Virus record (IMG/VR): IMGVR_UViG_3300034272_000564
Coordinates: 1 to 43,313 of that record
Reading direction: 5' to 3' (one strand)
Length of the DNA stretch: 43,313 bases
Source: a virus
A program made the position numbers and the translations under genes. Below, one piece after another: positions 1,061-9,846 of the stretch. Under the pieces are notes generated by a model. It was given only the letters and a program-made list of their open reading frames with translations. It ran no database searches and was not told where the DNA came from. Numbering within the stretch: the stretch's first letter is position 1; every line of letters begins with the position of its first letter.

Positions 1061-1822
1061 TTAGATACCCATCTCTTTACGTTTTTCAGTAGCCGAAATA
1101 GCATGAATGTCTGCCCCCAAATCTACTTGTTCAATCTTATATCCTACATCACGACCATAAACAATGTTAGTTATGTTAGGTAATCTTAATACTAATGAGC
1201 CATCCATAAATTCATCTTTAGCAATATATTCCTTTACCTGATCAAAGGTGAGTGGGTCTTTTTCGCTTGTGTTGTATGTGTTGCGAACTCCCAGCAAAAC
1301 CTGTTCTGTCCTTTTGCTAGCTTCTTTGTAGAGTGCATGATGACCTTCATGCCAAGGCTGATACCTTCCCAACATAAGAGTTGTTGGCGCCGACCAGTCA
1401 TGTAGCTTAAACTCTTCAATTATTACTGAGGCTTTTTCATTGGGATCAAGTCGGTGATTTACAAACATCCAATCTATTTTTGCTGGCTTAACAAATATCT
1501 TGTTTGTATCTTCAAATCTTCCCTCTTCAATTGTATCCATAAAAATTAATATGTCTGGCTTGCCAAACGCTTTTCTTGTATCTTCTGTAGGGCAAACAAA
1601 ATCTACAATGACTGGGGCAACACCTTGTTTAGATATGAGACGTGCCATCTCGCCCATTCGTCTTGACTGCTCTATCCTGTCTTCAGGAGTAAACCCTAGG
1701 TCAGAATTAACTGTGGATCTAACTTCATCAGCATTTAGATGTAATGCATTAATTCTTTCTTTAAGGGCTTTTGCAAGCTCTGTTTTACCTGAGCCTGGTA
1801 GCCCAATAATCTGAATAATCAT
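1061..1822 (-). CDS. Bifunctional APS-kinase-like / cytidylyltransferase-like protein
   Basis: Residues 1-140 resemble adenylylsulfate kinase (CysC): Walker A GLPGSGKT at 7-14, LNADEVR at 29-35, then GFTPEDR and the RRMGEMA helix. Residues from about 145 form a second nucleotidyltransferase domain with LMLGRYQPWHEGHH (HxGH at 158-161) and a C-terminal ISATEKRKEM, the two hallmark motifs of the NMNAT/cytidylyltransferase superfamily. The architecture recalls PAPS synthase (kinase plus ATP sulfurylase) or NadR in reverse order, but the second domain looks like neither ATP sulfurylase nor a clear NMNAT. Substrates are therefore uncertain: APS phosphorylation, or phosphorylation and nucleotidyl transfer onto a small metabolite. 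AAGGAG (1832-1827) precedes the ATG. A structured leader lies upstream and DUF2061 follows downstream. Confidence 0.75.
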   Translation of the reverse strand: MIIQIIGLPGSGKTELAKALKERINALHLNADEVRSTVNSDLGFTPEDRIEQSRRMGEMARLISKQGVAPVIVDFVCPTEDTRKAFGKPDILIFMDTIEEGRFEDTNKIFVKPAKIDWMFVNHRLDPNEKASVIIEEFKLHDWSAPTTLMLGRYQPWHEGHHALYKEASKRTEQVLLGVRNTYNTSEKDPLTFDQVKEYIAKDEFMDGSLVLRLPNITNIVYGRDVGYKIEQVDLGADIHAISATEKRKEMGI

Positions 1823-1914
1823 AATACTCCTTAGTTGGTGGGCCTTTTAAACACATGCCCAGGTGCAGACTGTACGCTTCCTACATATCCCGATGTCCAC
1901 CGACGTACAGAATA
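1823..1914 (-). promoter_or_regulatory. Structured 5' leader upstream of the APS-kinase fusion gene
   Basis: This 92-base gap holds a 7-bp inverted repeat CTGTACG/CGTACAG (1910-1904 with 1876-1870, 27-base loop) and then a TGGGC/GCCCA stem (1861-1857 with 1843-1839) ending just before the ribosome binding site. No good promoter is seen, so it is probably transcribed from the hsp20 promoter. It could be a regulatory RNA element or just an intercistronic stabiliser. I recognise no riboswitch class. Confidence 0.35.
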
Positions 1915-2331
1915 TTATTTAATTTTTAGAATCTTAGGCTGTTTTTCTTTTGGAAGATTTCTAACTACACGAATATGTAGCATACCGTCTTTTAGTTCAA
2001 CGCTAGATACCTCCATGTATTCACTTAGCTCAAAAATCCTTGTGAACTTACGTGCAGCAATTCCTTTATGCACAACTTCCGCATCTGTTACTGCCGTAAC
2101 CTCTCCTGTAATCCATAGACTTCCGTCCTCAATAGATACCGTTAGATCTTCTCTTGTGAATCCAGCAACTGCCAGCGTTAGCTGGTAGTTATCATCATCT
2201 AGTTTTAGCAAATCATACGGCGGGAATGCTGTATTGTTTACCTTACTTAGACTGTTAAAGCGCTCCAACTCTCGGTTGAAACCAATAAAAAATGGATCCT
2301 TGAATAGATCCATAGCGAATTGTGTTACCAT
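1915..2331 (-). CDS. Small heat-shock protein, HSP20/alpha-crystallin family
   Basis: The 138-residue protein has the IbpA-like layout: a short N-terminal arm (MDLFKDPFFIGFNRELERF), the alpha-crystallin domain (YQLTLAVAGFTREDLTVSIEDGSLWITGE, then GIAARKFTRIFELSEYMEV and LKDGMLHIRV), and a short tail with KILKI, a variant of the IxI oligomerisation motif. Such proteins are ATP-independent holdases that keep unfolded proteins soluble. Many aquatic phages carry one, probably to help virion protein folding. The gene has its own extended -10 promoter and a good AAAAGGAG ribosome binding site, and is followed after a structured gap by the APS-kinase fusion. Confidence 0.93.
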   Translation of the reverse strand: MVTQFAMDLFKDPFFIGFNRELERFNSLSKVNNTAFPPYDLLKLDDDNYQLTLAVAGFTREDLTVSIEDGSLWITGEVTAVTDAEVVHKGIAARKFTRIFELSEYMEVSSVELKDGMLHIRVVRNLPKEKQPKILKIK

Positions 2332-2360
2332 TTTTTGCTCCTTTTAAGCGAGTTAAATTA

Positions 2361-2417
2361 GTACCCCCATTTGGCAGGTACAATTACATTATATCATTTG
2401 GTCAACTAAAAATGCAA
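2361..2417 (-). promoter_or_regulatory. hsp20 promoter and 5'-terminal hairpin
   Basis: TATAAT at 2393-2388 is preceded by TGA (extended -10), with a weak TTGCAT at 2417-2412, 18 bases upstream. Transcription would begin near 2381, exactly where a hairpin begins (2381-2361: GTACC ... GGTAC with an inner T-G and C-G pair). About 30 bases then lead to the AAAAGGAG ribosome binding site. Confidence 0.55.
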
Positions 2418-2425
2418 ATTGTTGT

Positions 2426-3181
2426 TTAAGACAGACCATTTATTTCTTTAACCAGTCTATTTATTTCTTTAATATTGTCGTCTGACGGTACGCAGGATAT
2501 CATTATGTCGGACACATTAAGTTTATTAATATCAATAATATTCTTTTTTATTTTTTCATAGGTACCATAAAACCTGACATCCCAGTTTTTTTCTCCCATT
2601 TTTTCAATAAAAGATTTTGCCTCTTCATCTGTATCCCTTATACAAACTTTAATCACTACGCCAATTTTTTTTACATTTTTTATATACTTTTGAACATTTT
2701 GATAAGCGGTGTATTCGGTAAACAGTACATCTCCATATTGATTTGCTAAATCAATAACGGTATTGGAAGAACCACTGACTGCAATCTCTGCCATACCATT
2801 ATTTTTTTTACTAAAATCTTTAATAAATTTTATAAAATTAATAACCCTATCTTCTTTGCTAACAAGATTATCTTCATCATTATTTATTATTCCGACAACA
2901 AAATTGATCATTAGTCTGTCGGGCTGTATGTCATTAAACGATCTGCACATCATTATGCAGTACTCTGGAGAAATTGCATGTGGTCTTATTGCTATATTAT
3001 ATTTTATTTTTTCATTTTTGTTTATTATATGTGCAGCTTTGATCCAACCATCATGTTGATTTGAATTGTATATAGTTAGTATTGAATAGTATCCAGACAG
3101 CTCAAGATCGGTTACAAAATCTTTTAATTCGTTTATTTTTAAACGTGAAAGATCTCTGTACATAAAATGAAAGTTAAACAA
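2426..3181 (-). CDS. Luciferase-like monooxygenase (LLM) family protein
   Basis: The 251-residue sequence reads as a TIM-barrel flavin/F420 monooxygenase of the bacterial luciferase-like family: FHFMYRDLS as strand 1, LELSGYYSILTIY, then KYNIAIRPHAISPEYCIMMCRSF and the RLMINFVVG strand typical of alkanesulfonate-monooxygenase-like members. It is shorter than the usual 320-380 residues, lacking part of the C-terminal barrel. The start is TTG at 3181, directly after the TAA of the upstream IMPDH-like gene; it keeps the first beta strand (MFNFHF), whereas the next ATG (3163) would remove it. The substrate cannot be told from sequence; bacterial relatives oxidise sulfonates, aldehydes or nitrilotriacetate. 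It looks co-transcribed with the Dps-like and IMPDH/GMPR genes. Confidence 0.65.
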   Translation of the reverse strand: MFNFHFMYRDLSRLKINELKDFVTDLELSGYYSILTIYNSNQHDGWIKAAHIINKNEKIKYNIAIRPHAISPEYCIMMCRSFNDIQPDRLMINFVVGIINNDEDNLVSKEDRVINFIKFIKDFSKKNNGMAEIAVSGSSNTVIDLANQYGDVLFTEYTAYQNVQKYIKNVKKIGVVIKVCIRDTDEEAKSFIEKMGEKNWDVRFYGTYEKIKKNIIDINKLNVSDIMISCVPSDDNIKEINRLVKEINGLS

Positions 3182-4240
3182 TTATATTCTGCTTTTTGAT
3201 TCCTGTAAAGACTGCGGGGATACTTTTATAAATCTGCACTCTTCTCTAAAAATTTTAAGATTTTGAGATCCACAGTAAGAAAGTCCGCTTTTGGCATTAT
3301 TTATAAATTGTGTAATAGTGTTTCGTACTGGACCCTTGTTATCTATATATGCGGAAACGCCCTCAACATGAAGGTGATTTAAAGGCGGCTTCTCTCCAGT
3401 TTCTTTATCTAACTGTATACTTTCAGAAGCCAAGCCTCTAAATAAAAACTTTCCATTAGACATTCCGTCACACTCTTCATGTCCCGCAAACATAGTTCCC
3501 ATCATAACTGCGCTGGCTCCACCAGCAAAAGCCTTTACGATATCTCCGTTATGCTTAATGCCACCGTCAGAAACAATTCCATTAACTACATCATTTTTTA
3601 CATTTTGATATACATCCATAATTGAACCTAATACTGGTGTGCCAAATCCAGTTACTAGTCTTGTTGTGCAGGCTGCGCCTCCCCCAATCCCGACCCTAAC
3701 TGAGTCGGCGCCAGAATCCATTAAGTCTTTATAAGCATCGTATGAAGAAACATTGCCACTCATAATATGAATATAATTAGGGACTACAGCTCTTAATTTT
3801 TTGACTGCATTAACCGATGTATCTGTATGTCCATATGCAGTGTCTATTAGTATAACCCTGCATCCCAAATTAAGTATTTGTTCTATAAAACCCTTGTCGT
3901 CTACATCTGTATTATTGATGGCAAAGCCAAGTCTGTGAGACCATTCTGATTCTAAAGAAATTTTTTTGTACTGGGCCAGACGATCATCTTTGTTTTGAAA
4001 TCTGTGAACAAAAGCCAAGCCACCATATTCAAGCACCTCTTTGATCATGCTTGTGCTGCTAATAAATTCCATCGGTGCCATTACAAATGCATTTTCTAAA
4101 GTAAGCCACGCTGCTGGGTTATTTGGGTTTCCAACAACTGATTTTAATTCTATGTCTGATCTACTTTTGACATTAGATCTTTTTGGTACCAACAGTATGT
4201 CATCAAAACATAAACTGTTCGTTAGTGTGTCTAGTTGCAA
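3182..4240 (-). CDS. IMP dehydrogenase / GMP reductase family enzyme without CBS domains
   Basis: The 352-residue barrel has family landmarks in order: CFDDILLVP near the N-terminus, DTAYGH, the catalytic loop [11 protein letters not shown] with Cys191 (family consensus GIGPGSxCTTR), then [30 protein letters not shown] for GMP/IMP phosphate binding. There are no CBS domains, and the length fits GMP reductase (about 350) better than IMPDH (about 490). The C-terminus ([15 protein letters not shown], final ESK) is intermediate, so the reaction (IMP to XMP, or GMP to IMP) is undecided. Cytosolic purine interconversion during infection is the likely role. The start is TTG at 4240 with AAGGA five to six bases before it. 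The next gene, the luciferase-like monooxygenase, starts immediately after its stop. Confidence 0.85.
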
Positions 4241-4242
4241 TT

Positions 4243-4713
4243 TTAGTCCTTAAGAGATTTCCATGGATTTGGTGGAAGCTTTAGGCTAGACTCCAAGAAC
4301 CAGTTCCACTCTTGATGCTTCTTTAAAAGCTCAGATAAGTGTTGTACTAATGCCCACTCTTTACTTGCTATTGCTTGTTCTGTTACAACTCTTATTTCTT
4401 CGATCATTTTTTTGTTTATTGGCACAAGATGAACTGCCATTTCGACTCCACAGTATGTGTCTGGCTTAACGTTGCCTAAAGTTTGCGATTCAGATATCTC
4501 TTCAATTGTATAAAGAGCCTCTCCGCCTATTCTGCGTAGCCATAACGAGGTCTCCATAAGAAGCCTGTCTGACTCTAGATATATTTCTTTGTAGACAATT
4601 TGTGACTGTCTCATAAGCACGGACTCTGTGTTAAGATAAAAACCTTTTACAAGATTTGTATAAATAAATGAATTTGATTGCAACTCTTGCATTGAATTAA
4701 TTAGCTGTTTCAT
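4243..4713 (-). CDS. Dps-like (ferritin-superfamily) protein lacking usual metal ligands
   Basis: This 156-residue, mostly helical protein resembles Dps in outline: an N-terminal helix with YTNLVKGFYLNTES, a helix ending LWLRRIGGEAL where Dps has the ERxxxLGG motif, an internal THIEEIS-like stretch, and a last helix LSELLKKHQEWNWFLESSL like the HxxxxWML helix of Dps. If the RIGG is aligned to the Dps LGG, the ferroxidase Asp and Glu fall on Met and Leu, and the two ligand histidines are absent. It may bind DNA or only keep the fold. It is first in a unit with the IMPDH/GMPR and luciferase-like genes and has an extended -10 promoter about 30 bases upstream. Confidence in the family is moderate. 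Confidence 0.5.
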   Translation of the reverse strand: MKQLINSMQELQSNSFIYTNLVKGFYLNTESVLMRQSQIVYKEIYLESDRLLMETSLWLRRIGGEALYTIEEISESQTLGNVKPDTYCGVEMAVHLVPINKKMIEEIRVVTEQAIASKEWALVQHLSELLKKHQEWNWFLESSLKLPPNPWKSLKD

Positions 4714-4740
4714 TTTTTCTCTTTTCTTTTATTAGTGTTT

Positions 4741-4749
4741 AGTATATCA
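4741..4749 (-). promoter_or_regulatory. Extended -10 promoter for the Dps-like operon
   Basis: TGA-TATACT (4749-4741) lies 27 bases before the ATG of the Dps-like gene, inside the only gap between it and the upstream oxygenase gene. A purine-rich AAGAGAAAAA serves as a weak ribosome binding site. Confidence 0.5.
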
Positions 4750-4751
4750 TT

Positions 4752-5597
4752 TTATTGAAAACGATGCCACGGTTTTGCTTTGCCAAATTGCCCCTGTAAA
4801 GTTCTTTGATTTTCTATAAATCCCCCGCTCACTGAGTGTGCTAGTTTATATAAATCAGGGACCGCAAGGTCTCCCTCTTTCCATTTATGGACCATCCTGA
4901 TATCTTCGTTTGTCCAAACCTCATTACAAATCCATTTAATTAATCGCATGAAATTTTGTGTTTCGCCATCATTTGGCTCACGCCCATCAAAATATTTTAA
5001 ATATGTGAATTCTGGGTGGGGGGATGCTAAATGAACTCGTAATGTTTTTTCACCAGTTATTGGGTGAGTGTTGACAGTTTTAAAGGATTGCTTAACTTCT
5101 TTTAAAGTTTGATTATTATTAGTATCGTAAGTAGCTTCAGTGACTGTTATGTATGTTGTGCATTTGTCCAAAAATTCTTGATCTTCTTTGTTTAACCTAG
5201 AATACATTTCGGTCATATCCATAAAATAAGTATGTCCTGAGTCTTCTGGGCAATTAAATTTTTCCATTCTCCAAGTAGCCCCATGAAATGAATCATTTTC
5301 ATTTTCTACATGTTCAATGTGCCAATTTAACATTAATTGATCTTTTGTAGCATAATAACCATTTACCATGTGCTTATGATGATCTTCTACGTAATCCGAC
5401 GGGCTATGATCTAAAGAATTTGGATACCACCCAAGAGTGTCTCCAAAAAATTCCATAAGGTCTGTCTGTTGCTCTTTGTTTAAATTAGCATTTCTAAATA
5501 CAATAATTTTATCTTTTAAAAAAATATTCTTATATTTTTCAGGGTTAGATTTAATTTCTTCAATAGAAGTAAACTCTGTTGTATTAACCAATCTCAT
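4752..5597 (-). CDS. TauD/TfdA-type 2-oxoglutarate/Fe(II) dioxygenase
   Basis: The 281-residue protein follows the TauD/TfdA plan: LKDKIIVFRNANL near the N-terminus, NWHIEHV carrying the first iron ligands (His93, Glu95), GHTYFMDMTEMYSRL as in family members that bind a carboxylated substrate, then WKEGDLAVPDLYKLAHSV with the distal His254 and Arg265 (NQRTLQG) for 2-oxoglutarate. The second ligand is Glu rather than the common Asp (HxE instead of HxD), as in clavaminate synthase. TauD-type enzymes hydroxylate small molecules, often sulfonates or amino-acid derivatives; substrate unknown. It lies just downstream of a second, unrelated-type 2OG oxygenase with an 11-base gap. Confidence 0.82.
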   Translation of the reverse strand: MRLVNTTEFTSIEEIKSNPEKYKNIFLKDKIIVFRNANLNKEQQTDLMEFFGDTLGWYPNSLDHSPSDYVEDHHKHMVNGYYATKDQLMLNWHIEHVENENDSFHGATWRMEKFNCPEDSGHTYFMDMTEMYSRLNKEDQEFLDKCTTYITVTEATYDTNNNQTLKEVKQSFKTVNTHPITGEKTLRVHLASPHPEFTYLKYFDGREPNDGETQNFMRLIKWICNEVWTNEDIRMVHKWKEGDLAVPDLYKLAHSVSGGFIENQRTLQGQFGKAKPWHRFQ

Positions 5598-5609
5598 TGC
5601 TATTCCGAT

Positions 5610-6308
5610 CTATTTATTAACTGCCTCATAGGATGTGGCAATAGTTGAGGGCATGACTTGACCTTGACCCCATTGTTCTTTTTGTTTATCTTGATCTAAC
5701 TTTATTAAATTTTTTATTTCTTGAAAATTTTTATCGTATGAAGAATCTGCGTAATCATATGAGCCTAACATTGTATATCTTTGACCAGACAAAACTTCGG
5801 TTACTGCATGAACATTTTTAATGCCAACATCAAAAACTATAAAGGAACCAGTTTCTGGTTTAAAGGCTAACTCATGATCTCTAAATGTAAGCAATCCTCC
5901 TTCAAAGTTATCATTTAAATAAATCATGGTAACAAATTTATTTTCCTCCCACGCATTAGGGGTTCCGTCTAGTTCTGCGTTGTCTGCGTGATCTCCAGCA
6001 AATGCTCCTGGGTCCCACCTGTGTGCGCTTAAACTAATCTGTCTTAGTTTAGCTTTAAAAACTTTTTCCGCTAAGTCTTGTGATTTAAGCTGCACCTGTC
6101 TTAAACTGTAACCAGCTTCTTGTTTATTTGGTTTTTTACCAGAAATAACATATGAGTTATAAAAACAAGATAAAGACCAGTCGTCAAGACTGTTCCAGTA
6201 TTCTATCAAGAAATCACATTCTGATTTTGTTAAAACATTTTTATACTCAACAATATCTGGCCTGTGAACTATTTCCTTCATGTTATCTGGGTAAATAAAT
6301 TTTTCCAT
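5610..6308 (-). CDS. Prolyl-4-hydroxylase-like 2OG-Fe(II) oxygenase
   Basis: The 232-residue protein has the P4H-type double-stranded beta helix: VLTKSECDFLIEYW (N-terminal helix), GDHADN with iron ligands His107 and Asp109, TMIYLNDNFEGGLLTF, and GSFIVFDVGIKNVHAVTEVLSGQRY with His167 and the 2-oxoglutarate Arg177. Phage members of this family are common but their substrates (protein side chains, DNA bases or small molecules) are mostly unknown. The ATG at 6308 lies exactly six bases after a TGG-TATAAT element, so the mRNA is probably leaderless, with no room for a ribosome binding site. The 40-residue tail beyond the catalytic core is Gln/Lys-rich. Confidence 0.85.
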   Translation of the reverse strand: MEKFIYPDNMKEIVHRPDIVEYKNVLTKSECDFLIEYWNSLDDWSLSCFYNSYVISGKKPNKQEAGYSLRQVQLKSQDLAEKVFKAKLRQISLSAHRWDPGAFAGDHADNAELDGTPNAWEENKFVTMIYLNDNFEGGLLTFRDHELAFKPETGSFIVFDVGIKNVHAVTEVLSGQRYTMLGSYDYADSSYDKNFQEIKNLIKLDQDKQKEQWGQGQVMPSTIATSYEAVNK

Positions 6309-6323: not shown

Positions 6324-6328
6324 TTTCG

Positions 6329-6401
6329 TGTCCCCAGATGGTTTCGAACCATCGACCCGCAGATTAAAAGTCTGCTGCTCTACCAGCTGAGCTATAGGAA
6401 C
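6329..6401 (-). tRNA. tRNA-Lys (anticodon TTT)
   Basis: A full cloverleaf is visible: 7-bp acceptor GTTCCTA/TGGGGAC (two G-T wobbles), D-stem GCTC/GAGC, anticodon stem GCAGA/TCTGC with loop CTTTTAA (anticodon TTT), T-arm GATGG TTCGAAA CCATC, discriminator A. CCA is not encoded. It lies downstream of ahpD, separated by two hairpins. Confidence 0.93.
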
Positions 6402-6405
6402 AGAT

Positions 6406-6441
6406 GGTTAATAGGTCTACGAGCAGACCAACCCATTAACC
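6406..6441 (-). other. Hairpin between ahpD and tRNA-Lys (tRNA-proximal)
   Basis: On the minus strand GGTTAAT pairs with ATTAACC (7 bp, 6441-6435 with 6412-6406), and inside it GGTCT pairs with AGACC. No T-run follows, so it is more likely an RNA-processing or stability element ahead of tRNA-Lys than a terminator. Confidence 0.45.
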
Positions 6442-6442
6442 T

Positions 6443-6472
6443 AATACATTGAGGATTCTCAGCCTTTGTATT
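6443..6472 (-). other. Hairpin just after the ahpD stop
   Basis: AATACA pairs with TGTATT (6472-6467 with 6448-6443), with an inner TGAG/CTCA stem and small bulges. It begins five bases after ahpD ends. It lacks a T-run, so termination here would be weak. Confidence 0.35.
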
Positions 6473-6477
6473 AATTG

Positions 6478-6990
6478 TTAGGCAGAAAGAATTTTAGATA
6501 GAGCGTTAATTGTTGCTGCAATTCTTCCGATATCACGCAATTGCTCTACTGAATATCCTTCTTCCTTTAATGTTTCATAATGCGCTTTCACACAAAAGTG
6601 ACACTTTCCAATAATTGAAGATGCCAAAGAGTAAGCTTCAAACTTAGCCTTTGTTGTTCCTCCATGCGATGTAATGGCATTCATTCTTAATTGTGCTGGA
6701 AGACCCTTAAGCGCTGGATCATCTGCCATCTCAATGAATGGGTACCATACATTGTTCTGAGCCATAATTGAACCAGCAGTAAGGGCTGCATTCTTTTCAA
6801 CTTCATCTGTTGCGCTTGCAACAATAAATGCAAGCAGCTTAGAGTTTCCAGTTGCAAAAGCTGCAGCAATTGACAAGTATGTCGCTTGCTCTGAATCAAT
6901 AGTTGACCTATTAATTACTGCATCAAGGTTTAGTTTAATGTCTTTTGCGTAGTCTGGAAGGGATTCTTTTAGCTGTTCTACCCATGACAT
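6478..6990 (-). CDS. ahpD: AhpD-family alkylhydroperoxidase (carboxymuconolactone decarboxylase fold)
   Basis: The 170-residue protein matches AhpD along its length. The catalytic relay is intact: Glu118, Cys130, Cys133 (CHFC) and His137, the same numbering as the M. tuberculosis enzyme. In actinobacteria AhpD re-reduces AhpC using electrons passed from dihydrolipoamide and also has weak peroxidase activity. The gene directly follows ahpC with a TAATG overlap (stop TAA 6992-6990, ATG 6990-6988), so the partners are translationally coupled. An AhpCD pair in a phage suggests acquisition from an actinobacterial host and a role in keeping infected cells free of peroxides or peroxynitrite. Confidence 0.92.
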   Translation of the reverse strand: MSWVEQLKESLPDYAKDIKLNLDAVINRSTIDSEQATYLSIAAAFATGNSKLLAFIVASATDEVEKNAALTAGSIMAQNNVWYPFIEMADDPALKGLPAQLRMNAITSHGGTTKAKFEAYSLASSIIGKCHFCVKAHYETLKEEGYSVEQLRDIGRIAATINALSKILSA

Positions 6991-7526
6991 TATAGAGTTT
7001 CTCCACCAAGGGATCTATTACAAGCACAGAGTTCGCCAGTCTGTAGTGCATCTAGGACACGAAGTGTCTCCTCTGGATTTCTCCCCACGTCTAGGTTATT
7101 GACTGTAACATGCTGAATGATGTTGTCTGGGTCTACAATAAATGTTGCACGGTATGTAACTCCAGAAGGGTGGTGTACGCCCAAATCGCTTGCAAGCTGG
7201 CGTCCTGTATCTGCAAATGACCATGAATTTGTCTTCTTTAAATCATCATGTGCATTACGCCATGCAATTTTACAGAATTCATTATCAACTGATCCAGTCA
7301 TAAGAACTGTATCACGGTCATTAAAATCATTTACTAGTGCATCATATGCAACAATTTCTGTTGGACAAACAAACGTAAAGTCCTTTGGATAGAATGCAAT
7401 CACTTTCCATTTGCCTGGAAAAGAATCTTGATTAATTACTTCAAATGAAGAGTCGTCATACGACAACGCTCCAGGTTTAACTCCAGTAACGGCAAAGCTA
7501 CCGAGCTTATCTCCTACAGTTTTCAT
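6990..7526 (-). CDS. ahpC: Alkyl hydroperoxide reductase C (2-Cys peroxiredoxin)
   Basis: The 178-residue peroxiredoxin has the peroxidatic Cys54 in DFTFVCPTE and C-terminal Cys167 and Cys169 in GELCACN, the three-cysteine pattern of actinobacterial AhpC. SVDNEFCKIAWRNAH and SGVTYRATFIVDP are also typical. The start is ATG at 7526 with AAGGAG four bases before it; an in-frame Met at 7664 exists only because the frame stays open through two tRNA genes and is not used. The enzyme reduces H2O2, alkyl peroxides and peroxynitrite in the cytosol and is recycled by AhpD, encoded next. The gene lies 32 bases after tRNA-Arg and is probably on the same transcript as the three upstream tRNAs. Confidence 0.96.
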   Translation of the reverse strand: MKTVGDKLGSFAVTGVKPGALSYDDSSFEVINQDSFPGKWKVIAFYPKDFTFVCPTEIVAYDALVNDFNDRDTVLMTGSVDNEFCKIAWRNAHDDLKKTNSWSFADTGRQLASDLGVHHPSGVTYRATFIVDPDNIIQHVTVNNLDVGRNPEETLRVLDALQTGELCACNRSLGGETL

Positions 7527-7558
7527 AGTTCTCCTTATATATAAGTGGGAATTCCCCG

Positions 7559-7630
7559 CACCCCTGGCTGGAATCGAACCAGCGACCAACAGATTAGAAG
7601 TCTGTTGCTCTTCCGCTGAGCTACAGAGGT
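7559..7630 (-). tRNA. tRNA-Arg (anticodon TCT)
   Basis: Acceptor ACCTCTG/CAGGGGT, D-stem GCTC/GAGC, anticodon stem ACAGA/TCTGT with loop CTTCTAA (anticodon TCT), T-arm GCTGG TTCGATT CCAGC, discriminator G. It reads AGA/AGG, codons favoured by this AT-rich genome over the usual actinobacterial CGN. CCA is not encoded. Confidence 0.93.
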
Positions 7631-7634
7631 ATCG

Positions 7635-7707
7635 CTGGGAATGCAGGCATCGATCCTGCGACATTCGAATTAACAGTTCGACGCTCTACCATCTGAGCTA
7701 ATTCCCA
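7635..7707 (-). tRNA. tRNA-Asn (anticodon GTT)
   Basis: Acceptor TGGGAAT/ATTCCCA (7 perfect pairs), D-stem GCTC/GAGC, anticodon stem TCGAA/TTCGA with loop CTGTTAA (anticodon GTT), T-stem GCAGG/CCTGC, discriminator G. The T-loop reads ATCGATG, so the nearly invariant T54 is A, which would disturb the T54-A58 pair. It lies four bases from tRNA-Arg and tRNA-CAT on either side. Confidence 0.92.
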
Positions 7708-7711
7708 CTAG

Positions 7712-7785
7712 TGTGCCAGGTAGGACTTGAACCTACGATTACCGAATTATGAGTTCGGGGCTTTAACCAACTAAGCTACTGGCAC
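7712..7785 (-). tRNA. tRNA with CAT anticodon (elongator Met or lysidine Ile)
   Basis: Acceptor GTGCCAG/CTGGCAC is fully paired, including position 1-72, which rules out an initiator tRNA. The D-stem is GCTT/AAGC, the anticodon stem CCGAA/TTCGG with loop CTCATAA, the T-arm GTAGG TTCAAGT CCTAC, discriminator A. Sequence alone does not separate elongator Met from Ile (k2CAU). It is the first gene after a consensus promoter. Confidence 0.92.
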
Positions 7786-7798
7786 TTTACTTTTTTAT

Positions 7799-7827
7799 AT
7801 TATATAAAAACTATACGGATTTGTCAA
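7799..7827 (-). promoter_or_regulatory. Consensus promoter for the tRNA-ahpC-ahpD unit
   Basis: A perfect TTGACA (7827-7822) is separated by 17 bases from a perfect TATAAT (7804-7799) on the minus strand. The predicted start near 7792 lies about seven bases before tRNA-CAT. The -35 lies in the last codons of the upstream small gene. No terminator is seen before ahpD, so three tRNAs, ahpC and ahpD can form one transcript. Confidence 0.85.
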
Positions 7828-8047
7828 TGGATTGCTCTACTATTTGTTGTACATATTCCGAAAAGTGTTTTCTTATTGAACCCATTGGTCTTGATCCGTA
7901 GGACTCCCATATTCTTTTATATTCTACTACATTATAAAATGTTGTGGGACACATTATTATATTGTTATATTCTTTCATTACAGTGGGAAGCGGAACATGT
8001 TTACCGCAACACTTACATTCTTTTGCCATTTCTTGATATTCGCTCAT
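7811..8047 (-). CDS. Small cysteine-cluster protein, unknown function
   Basis: This 78-residue protein follows the large terminase gene with an ATGA overlap (ATG at 8047). Its N-terminal CKCCGKHVPLP and a later MCPTTF suggest one zinc site (CxCC plus a lone Cys), and it then becomes charged and helical (VEYKRIWESYGSRPMGSIRKHF). I recognise no family. The position after TerL suggests a late or packaging-associated role, but that is only context. The last codons contain the -35 of the tRNA/ahpC promoter. Confidence 0.7.
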   Translation of the reverse strand: MSEYQEMAKECKCCGKHVPLPTVMKEYNNIIMCPTTFYNVVEYKRIWESYGSRPMGSIRKHFSEYVQQIVEQSIDKSV

Positions 8048-9846
8048 ATTATTTGCATCCTGTCCATTGCGTCTTTTAAGTTTTCTGGCATTCTAGGAGC
8101 CCTAATCATATTGTATGAGCTGGTTTCTCCGTCTGCCTCTGTTCCAAAGTCATTGTCGTAGCTCATTGATTCATATGTATGTATCTTTATCTCTTGATTA
8201 TTATCAAATCTGGTTCTGCTGATTGAATTAAATATTGCTCCACAAGTAGCATCTGCTAAGTCTTTTGAACCTTTTCGTGGGTGGTCTACCTTATCTCTCA
8301 TAATTCTAAGTTGGCAAAGTTCGTCTATAAGTAAAGGTATGTGTGGTCCTATTAGTCTTTCTTCAGCTACAATCATGGCCATATCATCATAATGTTTTTT
8401 AGCGACAGACAGAATCTCTGTATTGATGCCATATTGTTTTAGTTGTTGCATCATATCATGAGAGTTCCATCTGTCAAAGGTACATACTGCTATGTTAAAT
8501 CCCCTTGTTTTAAGAGATAGAATATAATCTTTTACTTCAGTAAAATCTACCGACTTATCTGGTGTCGGGGTCCAGTACCTAACCGCATCTACTTCTACAA
8601 TAGGCGCTGGCTGTGAGTAGGTGTCTGTTACCTTTACATTTACCCACTTGTTAACGTGAGCCATTGTAACTGCACAGTGGTCATGTTTTTGTGCTAAGTC
8701 TACGTGTATATAGTATTTTTTATCTGGGTCTGGCAGAAACCACTCTTCAAGTCTACCAAAATTATCTACTGCAATTTGCCCAACATTAAATGCCTTTTCT
8801 ACTTTTTCTCTTGACTTAAAAAATGCATCAATCGCATCAGGTGGCATACAGGCAAATCTTGAAAGAGCGTCTGTGGGATTTGTAAAAAATGCTGTTTTAA
8901 AATCATCAATTTTTCTGACTGGGTTGATCTCCCAGGTCGGACGTTTAATTGCATATACTTTAGGTATTTTATAAGATATGATGTGATCCTCTTCCCACTG
9001 TATTTCAAACTCATTGCCTGCCGTTCCATCTGGAATCTCCTCGTACATCTTAAACTTATGCTCTCTGATTACAGTTTCTTTTTCTCCTATAACTGCATCA
9101 TATCTCTGCTGTATGTAATCGTTTTTAAATCTGGGAAAAGATAGCAATATTACTTTACCAAAATCTGGAAAGCGGGAGTCTACTGAAGCCCTATACATAT
9201 CGTATACAGCGCTGCCTGTTTTTGCTTGATCATGACCTGTAGTATTTTCAATTGCAAAACCAGAAATTTCATCTAGGATAACAACTATAACGTTGTACCC
9301 CTCCCAAGCTTCTCTTTCCGAGTGTCCTGAGTGTACAGTGATTGCTTTGCTAAATTGAATTTCAGAAGCCTTTGAATAATATTTACCTATAAACCAAGGA
9401 GACTTTTCAATTCTGCTTTTAAATCCCTTAAAAAAAACATTGTTTGCTTGCTGGGAGTTGATTGCAATGTTAATAATATCTATAGAGTCTCCTGGAGGTT
9501 TACCATAATAAGTTGCAGGATCTTTTAGGCATAATAGTAAATATACTATATATGCAACCGCAATAGTTGAGCAATAATCTTTACCAGAACCTTTTCCTAG
9601 TTGAGCTACAACCTCATTTGCTGTTTGCTTAAATCTAATTGCACCCTCTTCGTCTCCAAACAATTTTTTTAATGTAGACTCTTTATATATCTGAGAGCTT
9701 TTTTCTATTAGCACATACTGATATTCAGACAAAGGAGGAAGCCCTAAATAATTTGGATCATTTACAAATGTTCTAAGATCTACTGGCTTTTCCTCAAACT
9801 CTTCGCCATCTAAAATATCAATTAAATCAGAAAAATCAAATGACAT
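8044..9846 (-). CDS. Terminase large subunit (TerL)
   Basis: The 600-residue protein has the two TerL domains. The ATPase has Walker A GKGSGKD at 84-90 and Walker B VIVVILDE with Asp192-Glu193. The nuclease has Asp383 (YYIHVDLAQ), Asp458 (AVCTFDRW) and Asp532 (KDLADATCG), the RNase H-like acidic triad. It powers DNA translocation into the procapsid and cuts the concatemer. It starts with a TAATG overlap after an oxygenase gene and ends with an ATGA overlap into the next small gene. It is of the type seen in actinobacteriophages. Its location far from the tail module and next to a stress/tRNA island is unusual. Confidence 0.95.
   Translation of the reverse strand: MSFDFSDLIDILDGEEFEEKPVDLRTFVNDPNYLGLPPLSEYQYVLIEKSSQIYKESTLKKLFGDEEGAIRFKQTANEVVAQLGKGSGKDYCSTIAVAYIVYLLLCLKDPATYYGKPPGDSIDIINIAINSQQANNVFFKGFKSRIEKSPWFIGKYYSKASEIQFSKAITVHSGHSEREAWEGYNVIVVILDEISGFAIENTTGHDQAKTGSAVYDMYRASVDSRFPDFGKVILLSFPRFKNDYIQQRYDAVIGEKETVIREHKFKMYEEIPDGTAGNEFEIQWEEDHIISYKIPKVYAIKRPTWEINPVRKIDDFKTAFFTNPTDALSRFACMPPDAIDAFFKSREKVEKAFNVGQIAVDNFGRLEEWFLPDPDKKYYIHVDLAQKHDHCAVTMAHVNKWVNVKVTDTYSQPAPIVEVDAVRYWTPTPDKSVDFTEVKDYILSLKTRGFNIAVCTFDRWNSHDMMQQLKQYGINTEILSVAKKHYDDMAMIVAEERLIGPHIPLLIDELCQLRIMRDKVDHPRKGSKDLADATCGAIFNSISRTRFDNNQEIKIHTYESMSYDNDFGTEADGETSSYNMIRAPRMPENLKDAMDRMQII

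Follow-up and report, generated by a model that had tools for sequence, protein, structure and literature searches.

Judged by their sequences, katG and the unrelated gene pair ahpC-ahpD are exchanged for one another in one slot of closely related phages, directly behind tRNA genes. We consider it likely that this slot is a tRNA-punctuated expression site for interchangeable peroxide scavengers, which would hold down peroxide levels during infection and thereby protect phage replication. The exchange of katG and ahpCD, a hairpin and a sequence box in the leader, and a covarying pseudoknot behind the stop codon are new here.

The ahpC-ahpD unit of the window and its relatives

The window, by which we mean the whole stretch of 43,313 nucleotides analysed here, was classed as virus and contains genes for terminase, DNA polymerase, primase, helicase and a tape-measure protein, which places ahpC-ahpD inside a phage genome, as expected of phage auxiliary metabolic genes. 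The terminase shares 61-64% identity with Streptomyces phages of 127-130 kb. The large relatives of the window measure 110-119 kb, and one WhiB gene was present in each of the large records tested (16/16), which indicates an actinobacterial host. The window probably belongs to a lineage of large freshwater actinophages with genomes of about 115 kb. Elsewhere in the window, a dense auxiliary region extends over positions 1061-6308 of the minus strand, with kinase/nucleotidyltransferase-like, Hsp20, LLM monooxygenase-like, GMP reductase/IMPDH-like, ferritin-like, TauD and 2OG-Fe(II) oxygenase genes. Its ferritin-like reading frame (4713-4243, minus strand) scored under the Pfam cut-off and yielded no solved relative by sequence; by eye, Dps ferroxidase residues may be missing. 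Behind Hsp20 (about 1860-1914, minus strand), a long-range CTGTACG/CGTACAG pairing makes a structured 3' region possible.

Table 1. Features of the slot in the window, with katG and pseudoknot examples from related phages
Feature	Position	Strand	Remarks
Large terminase subunit	8044..9846	-	PHROG terminase; anchor gene for slot comparison
78-aa ORF, no family	7811..8047	-	separates terminase from promoter
Sigma-70 type promoter TTGACA-N17-TATAAT	7799..7827	-	12/12 match; -35 within last codons of ORF 8047-7811
tRNA-Met(CAT)	7711..7785	-	ARAGORN, Rfam RF00005; elongator Met or Ile2; CCA not encoded
tRNA-Asn(GTT)	7634..7707	-	ARAGORN, Rfam RF00005
tRNA-Arg(TCT)	7558..7630	-	ARAGORN, Rfam RF00005; reads AGA
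Short leader hairpin GGGGAATTCCC	7547..7557	-	just behind tRNA-Arg 3' end
Leader box CTTATATATAAGGAG, palindrome CTTATATATAAG	7531..7545	-	overlaps Shine-Dalgarno sequence
ahpC, 2-Cys peroxiredoxin, 178 aa	6990..7526	-	Pfam AhpC-TSA 79.8 bits
ahpD, CMD-family AhpC reductase, 170 aa	6478..6990	-	Pfam CMD 36.5 bits
Two stable hairpins behind ahpD stop	6406..6473	-	-21.4 kcal/mol, z -3.1
tRNA-Lys(TTT)	6328..6401	-	ARAGORN, Rfam RF00005; directly behind ahpD, downstream end of unit; absent from the initial annotation
Phage katG, behind tRNA genes	L153:12240-14285; L189:4147-6186; L343:3258-5306; L359:7408-5303		catalytic motifs intact
Pseudoknot examples	behind ahpD: L077:6517-6546, L108, L059; also L414:1616-1636, L343:5322-5342

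The initial annotation had described tRNA-CAT, tRNA-Asn, tRNA-Arg, ahpC and ahpD in one orientation behind a perfect promoter, and all of these were found on the minus strand. The promoter sequence occurs exactly only once in the whole window, where three sites with at most one mismatch stand against 0.61 expected, and its position is kept in relatives: a match of at least 10/12 was obtained in 65% of 65 distinct upstream edges versus 6% of shuffles. Most of these matches precede the first tRNA by 37-46 nt; in relatives without a tRNA they precede ahpC by 73-82 nt. The further statement that no terminator is visible was confirmed as well: between tRNA-Met and ahpC, the minus strand shows neither a promoter-like site (9/12 or better) nor a terminator-like one. 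Within ahpC there is a single weak terminator-like site, which is no more than chance would give. The Rfam matches of the tRNAs reached 65-72 bits, and CCA is not encoded by any tRNA gene of the window. AGA is the commonest arginine codon of the phage (63% of Arg codons), and according to the codon counts the tRNAs fit phage-wide codons and not ahpCD in particular, which does not favour an ahpCD-specific role for them. Upstream of the tRNAs beside ahpC, L083 and L084 contain, among their tRNAs, a conserved non-tRNA stretch (GCAAGATRCAGGGGCAACTAGGAGCCTACTGTACTAG...), perhaps an intron or a structured RNA, for which Rfam gave no match at the gathering threshold.

The stop codon of ahpC and the start codon of ahpD overlap by one base (TAATG). 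Phage AhpC has Cys54, Cys167 and Cys169 at exactly the positions annotated, aligned with Mycobacterium tuberculosis AhpC (2bmx), its best solved relative, and additionally Cys85; the peroxidatic cysteine lies within FTFVCPTE and the resolving cysteine near the C-terminus. Likewise, Glu118, Cys130, Cys133 and His137 of AhpD are exactly as annotated and align with M. tuberculosis AhpD (1gu9). AhpC passed the Pfam AhpC-TSA gathering score (79.8 vs 26 bits) and AhpD the core domain model TIGR00778 (29.9 vs 27.8), while the scores for the AhpC equivalog TIGR03137 (108.1 bits, curated cut-off 272) and the AhpD subfamily TIGR00777 (124.1 bits, curated cut-off 192) remained below the curated cut-offs. 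The catalytic residues listed in the initial annotation are not only present in the window but invariant in 51/51 full-length AhpC relatives and in 61/61 distinct phage AhpD proteins. At high synonymous distance, the median dN/dS was 0.048 for AhpC and 0.053 for AhpD, and by this measure both genes evolve under purifying selection. Together with the many viral contigs that carry relatives, this bears out the earlier description of a phage-borne pair with intact active sites.

Scans of IMG/VR yielded at least 594 confirmed AhpD relatives and at least 589 AhpC relatives. Among records selected by their terminase regardless of ahp content, 8/13 have both genes, including all four larger than 100 kb. 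INPHARED contained no AhpD match in 50,697 records and AhpC matches of less than 60% identity only. The tie to tRNA transcription proposed in the initial annotation applies to most loci and is not universal: among 52 loci left after redundancy was removed at 97% ahpC identity, 40 have a tRNA as the immediate upstream neighbour of ahpC, with a gap of 29-38 nt in 38 of these, and the other 12 comprise seven loci coupled to an upstream ORF and five with a promoter directly before ahpC. As the anticodons beside ahpC vary, it is a tRNA at this site that is conserved, not one particular tRNA. Several loci lack ahpC/ahpD at the terminase flank, and at least L171 and L198 carry ahpCD elsewhere in the genome.

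Exchange with katG and origin of the pair

The exchange is most evident from three close relatives. L189 and L192 share 98.4-98.5% identity with L086 over approximately 2.25 kb, from the terminase through the promoter, tRNA-Met and tRNA-Arg. Beyond tRNA-Arg, ahpC-ahpD comes next in L086 and katG in the other two; in L189 a small ORF (about 43 aa) stands after katG. The sequences become similar again at the end of ahpD, with 92-94% over 3.6 kb, and the pseudoknot is located there. In L153 (terminase 96%), tRNA-Met and tRNA-Arg are followed by the hairpin and box otherwise seen before ahpC, then by katG, the pseudoknot and tRNA-Lys. The slot of L187 (13129-15857) is a hybrid: katG lies behind the same tRNAs and leader as in L153 and is followed by a small ORF and by an ahpD that has diverged (59% identity to that of the window), with ahpC missing. 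AhpC and KatG occurred together in no locus examined, and the same applied to the whole records tested, in which those with AhpC were without KatG and those with KatG were without AhpC. In phages at a greater distance (terminase 56%), katG likewise lies close to tRNAs.

The L153 protein aligns to the solved KatG 5l05 through RMAWH, GLIYVNPEGP, ARMAMNDEE and GGHAFGK. The KatG proteins examined comprise 682-701 aa with intact catalytic motifs and a somewhat shortened C-terminal domain. We take the aligned motifs to hold the distal Arg-Trp-His, the Met-Tyr-Trp cross-link and the proximal His.

The pair had been annotated as actinobacterial-type and host-derived, and neither attribute was supported by the phylogeny. 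In each tree, the phage proteins cluster in a single clade, supported by 100/100 (AhpD) or 100/99 (AhpC), which falls with the Burkholderiales proteins, and the split of phage plus Burkholderiales-type AhpCD from Mycobacteriales AhpCD received 100/100 in both trees, with thin actinobacterial sampling. An actinobacterial origin of ahpCD is thus not supported by the trees at this sampling; WhiB indicates an actinobacterial host, whereas the pair groups with the Burkholderiales type. AhpD identity is 49-56% to Burkholderiales versus 35-45% to three Mycobacteriales plasmid copies. A scan of cellular AhpD across 84,980 species, based on short peptide patterns, detected 456 relatives, and the best 80 of these 456 are nearly all from Burkholderiales (49-56%), mostly with an adjoining AhpC of 58-65% identity. 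A sample intended as actinobacterial was centred on a genome titled Mycobacteriaceae; since its loci matched Burkholderiales at up to 100%, it entered the analysis solely as other Pseudomonadota. The single phage clade in both trees and the mostly adjoining AhpC of the Burkholderiales matches suggest that ahpC and ahpD were most likely acquired once, together and long ago. As to katG, some 'Ca. Planktophila' have a better KatG version whose gene is located close to a tRNA and was presumably obtained by horizontal transfer (PMC7527133); given phage katG behind tRNAs, a phage route is worth considering.

RNA elements at the borders of the slot

At the upstream border, a stem of at least 3 bp is present at the position of the leader hairpin in 24/37 distinct leaders, with ten different stem sequences, and a helix within the first 6 nt was found in 31/37 leaders versus 13.2 in shuffles. 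The stems vary while pairing is kept (GGGA/TCCC, GATAC/GTATC, GGAT/ATCC and others). Promoter-driven leaders gave a weak signal, with 5/8 starting with a hairpin versus 2.6 expected. Before ahpC, the box CTTATA(TA)TAAGGAG was counted 50 times, and the 1.53 Mb of ahpC/ahpD loci contain no copy at any other place; it also precedes katG in L153 and L187. Because the palindrome overlaps the Shine-Dalgarno sequence, translation could be modulated at this site.

At the downstream border, a core (TCCTNNNNANGA...AAAAC) follows the ahpD stop codon by a few nucleotides in 27/59 distinct 3' regions. It fits an H-type pseudoknot with the stems S1 (NNNTC/GANNN) and S2 (TNNNNA/TNNNNA), for which 88.4% of alignment cells pair versus at most 44% when the alignment is slid. 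The covariation score was 0.36 versus 0.15 in shuffles (0/500 as high), and both sides change in 7/11 pairs. When viral contigs were searched for the core by itself, it was detected in at least 120 viral stretches, in which it follows many genes, such as katG, Hsp20 and a recurrent unidentified protein, among the matches listed most often 4 nt after the stop codon. That the pseudoknot is specific to ahpD is refuted by this wider distribution. Among 82 distinct elements chosen regardless of pairing, the S2 core is completely paired in 57, which represent 14 stem sequences, the mean pairing being 3.51 versus 2.74 in shuffles (sd 0.06). Rfam 15 gave no match at E up to 10 for the L077 and L414 pseudoknots, and the neighbouring tRNA was the only match for the L108 region. 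Similar sequences, with weak E-values, lie between genes of cyanophage S-RIM4 and Microbacterium phage Count. The post-stop pseudoknot may be a general phage mRNA element. In the window it is absent from the ahpD 3' end, where the two hairpins occupy its place, and a scan of the window genes gave scattered, chance-like matches only.

Proposed function, alternative readings and known systems

From the arrangement of the unit we infer that the tRNAs are co-transcribed with ahpCD and that the RNA is then processed. Transcription would start at the consensus promoter, pass through the small tRNA array and read on into the peroxide-scavenging module, yielding one transcript, and the unit may be strongly expressed, as the initial annotation had supposed. 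RNase P and RNase Z would excise the CCA-less tRNAs and leave the ahpC-ahpD mRNA. A cut by RNase Z after the discriminator would produce an mRNA that starts one base before the short hairpin and thus carries a short 5' hairpin and a strong ribosome-binding site. AhpC would reduce peroxide and be regenerated by AhpD, which in turn might be re-reduced by the host lipoyl system, possibly assisted by phage thioredoxin; glutaredoxin was dropped as a phage-encoded reductant because no match above the cut-off was found in 14 large relatives. The slot is modular, katG being its content in close relatives between the same tRNA-Arg and the same pseudoknot-headed downstream region. One strong unit could in this way supply both tRNAs for AT-rich codons and a peroxide-scavenging enzyme, and low peroxide in the infected cell would protect phage replication in hosts with weak peroxide defence. 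Enzyme activity, a benefit to the phage and the host genus are likewise inferred.

The tRNAs could also be recombination landmarks, beside which peroxidase genes were repeatedly inserted or exchanged with no bearing on expression. The katG/ahpCD switch points, of which one immediately follows tRNA-Arg and the other coincides with the ahpD end, as well as the widely varying tRNA content beside ahpC, speak for this reading, but the distance from the promoter to the first tRNA is kept at 37-46 nt, or, where no tRNA is present, that to ahpC at 73-82 nt, and the 29-38 nt spacing, the leader hairpin and the box are all maintained. We consider it unlikely that the tRNAs are landmarks and nothing else, although insertion beside tRNAs and transcription through them are compatible with each other. 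More improbable still is a function of the pair as a general thiol-redox helper, e.g. for ribonucleotide reductase or protein disulfides, in place of peroxide scavenging. The thioredoxin gene found in 14/14 large relatives would suit such a function; however, the alternative in the slot is KatG, a heme catalase-peroxidase that shares peroxide as a substrate with AhpC, and the peroxidatic and resolving cysteines and the AhpD relay are invariant. The occurrence of alternative enzymes in one slot points to selection for peroxide removal as such.

Finally, bacterial ahpCD might have been joined to phage DNA in a contig chimera, evidence of which the initial annotation had named as a refutation. 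Nothing was found in favour of this explanation, to which we assign hardly any probability and which we rejected: L082/L150, an independent contig, has the arrangement of the window, dozens of further contigs have related arrangements, relatives' contigs of up to 119 kb contain terminase and WhiB, and GC3 of the ahpCD codons is that of the phage. At least 589 viral stretches for each gene, dN/dS values of about 0.05 and the invariant catalytic residues argue in the same direction.

The modular slot for peroxide scavengers, which we prefer over these alternatives, would matter in hosts that are themselves poor in peroxide defence. Axenic growth of Nanopelagicales needed added catalase, and a KatG enzyme of this group proved inactive (Kim et al., cited in PMC7527133); Nanopelagicales may be the leading candidate hosts. 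If the phages infect them, they would bring their own peroxide removal into a peroxide-defence-poor cell. For hosts from which heme synthesis is not known, the choice between heme-free AhpCD and heme-dependent KatG would then be a trade-off open to testing, and the near-isogenic katG and ahpCD relatives offer a ready natural experiment. More tentatively, and with somewhat less than even confidence, we propose that freshwater actinophages possess a modular peroxide-defence slot alternating between heme-free ahpC-ahpD and heme katG, with RNA borders made up of a tRNA plus 5' hairpin and an undescribed, widespread 3' pseudoknot, and that they may have been a vehicle of tRNA-linked katG into Nanopelagicales.

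Defence against reactive oxygen species (ROS) is already known from freshwater phages, many of them actinophages, which carry oxidative-stress genes (Kavagutti 2019, PMC6802176); the main text names ferritin, SOD, glutathione peroxidase, thioredoxin and glutaredoxin. The phages described there resemble ours in being from freshwater, often actinophages, and in having genes against oxidative stress. They differ in that 'ahp' is absent from the main text, and a tRNA slot and a katG exchange from the passages found. In the literature searched (main texts, open literature), neither the AhpCD/KatG slot with its RNA borders nor a publication combining ahpC, ahpD, phage and auxiliary metabolic genes was encountered; one Microcystis virus publication names ahpC. 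The M. tuberculosis AhpC-AhpD system (2bmx, 1gu9) is similar in gene pairing, catalytic residues and the expected lipoyl-dependent mechanism, but is farther from the phage pair than the Burkholderiales pairs, both in identity and in the two trees. The Streptomyces phages Francob, Gilson and Faust, about 130 kb in size and with numerous tRNAs, have tRNAs behind the terminase like the window but, in INPHARED, no AhpD match and no AhpC. In the thrU-tyrU-glyT-thrT-tufB operon of E. coli, tRNA genes are transcribed ahead of a protein gene and separated from it by tRNA processing. The phage unit likewise has tRNAs ahead of a protein-coding gene; in contrast to the E. coli operon, it contains an exchangeable metabolic module and a hairpin directly behind the last tRNA.
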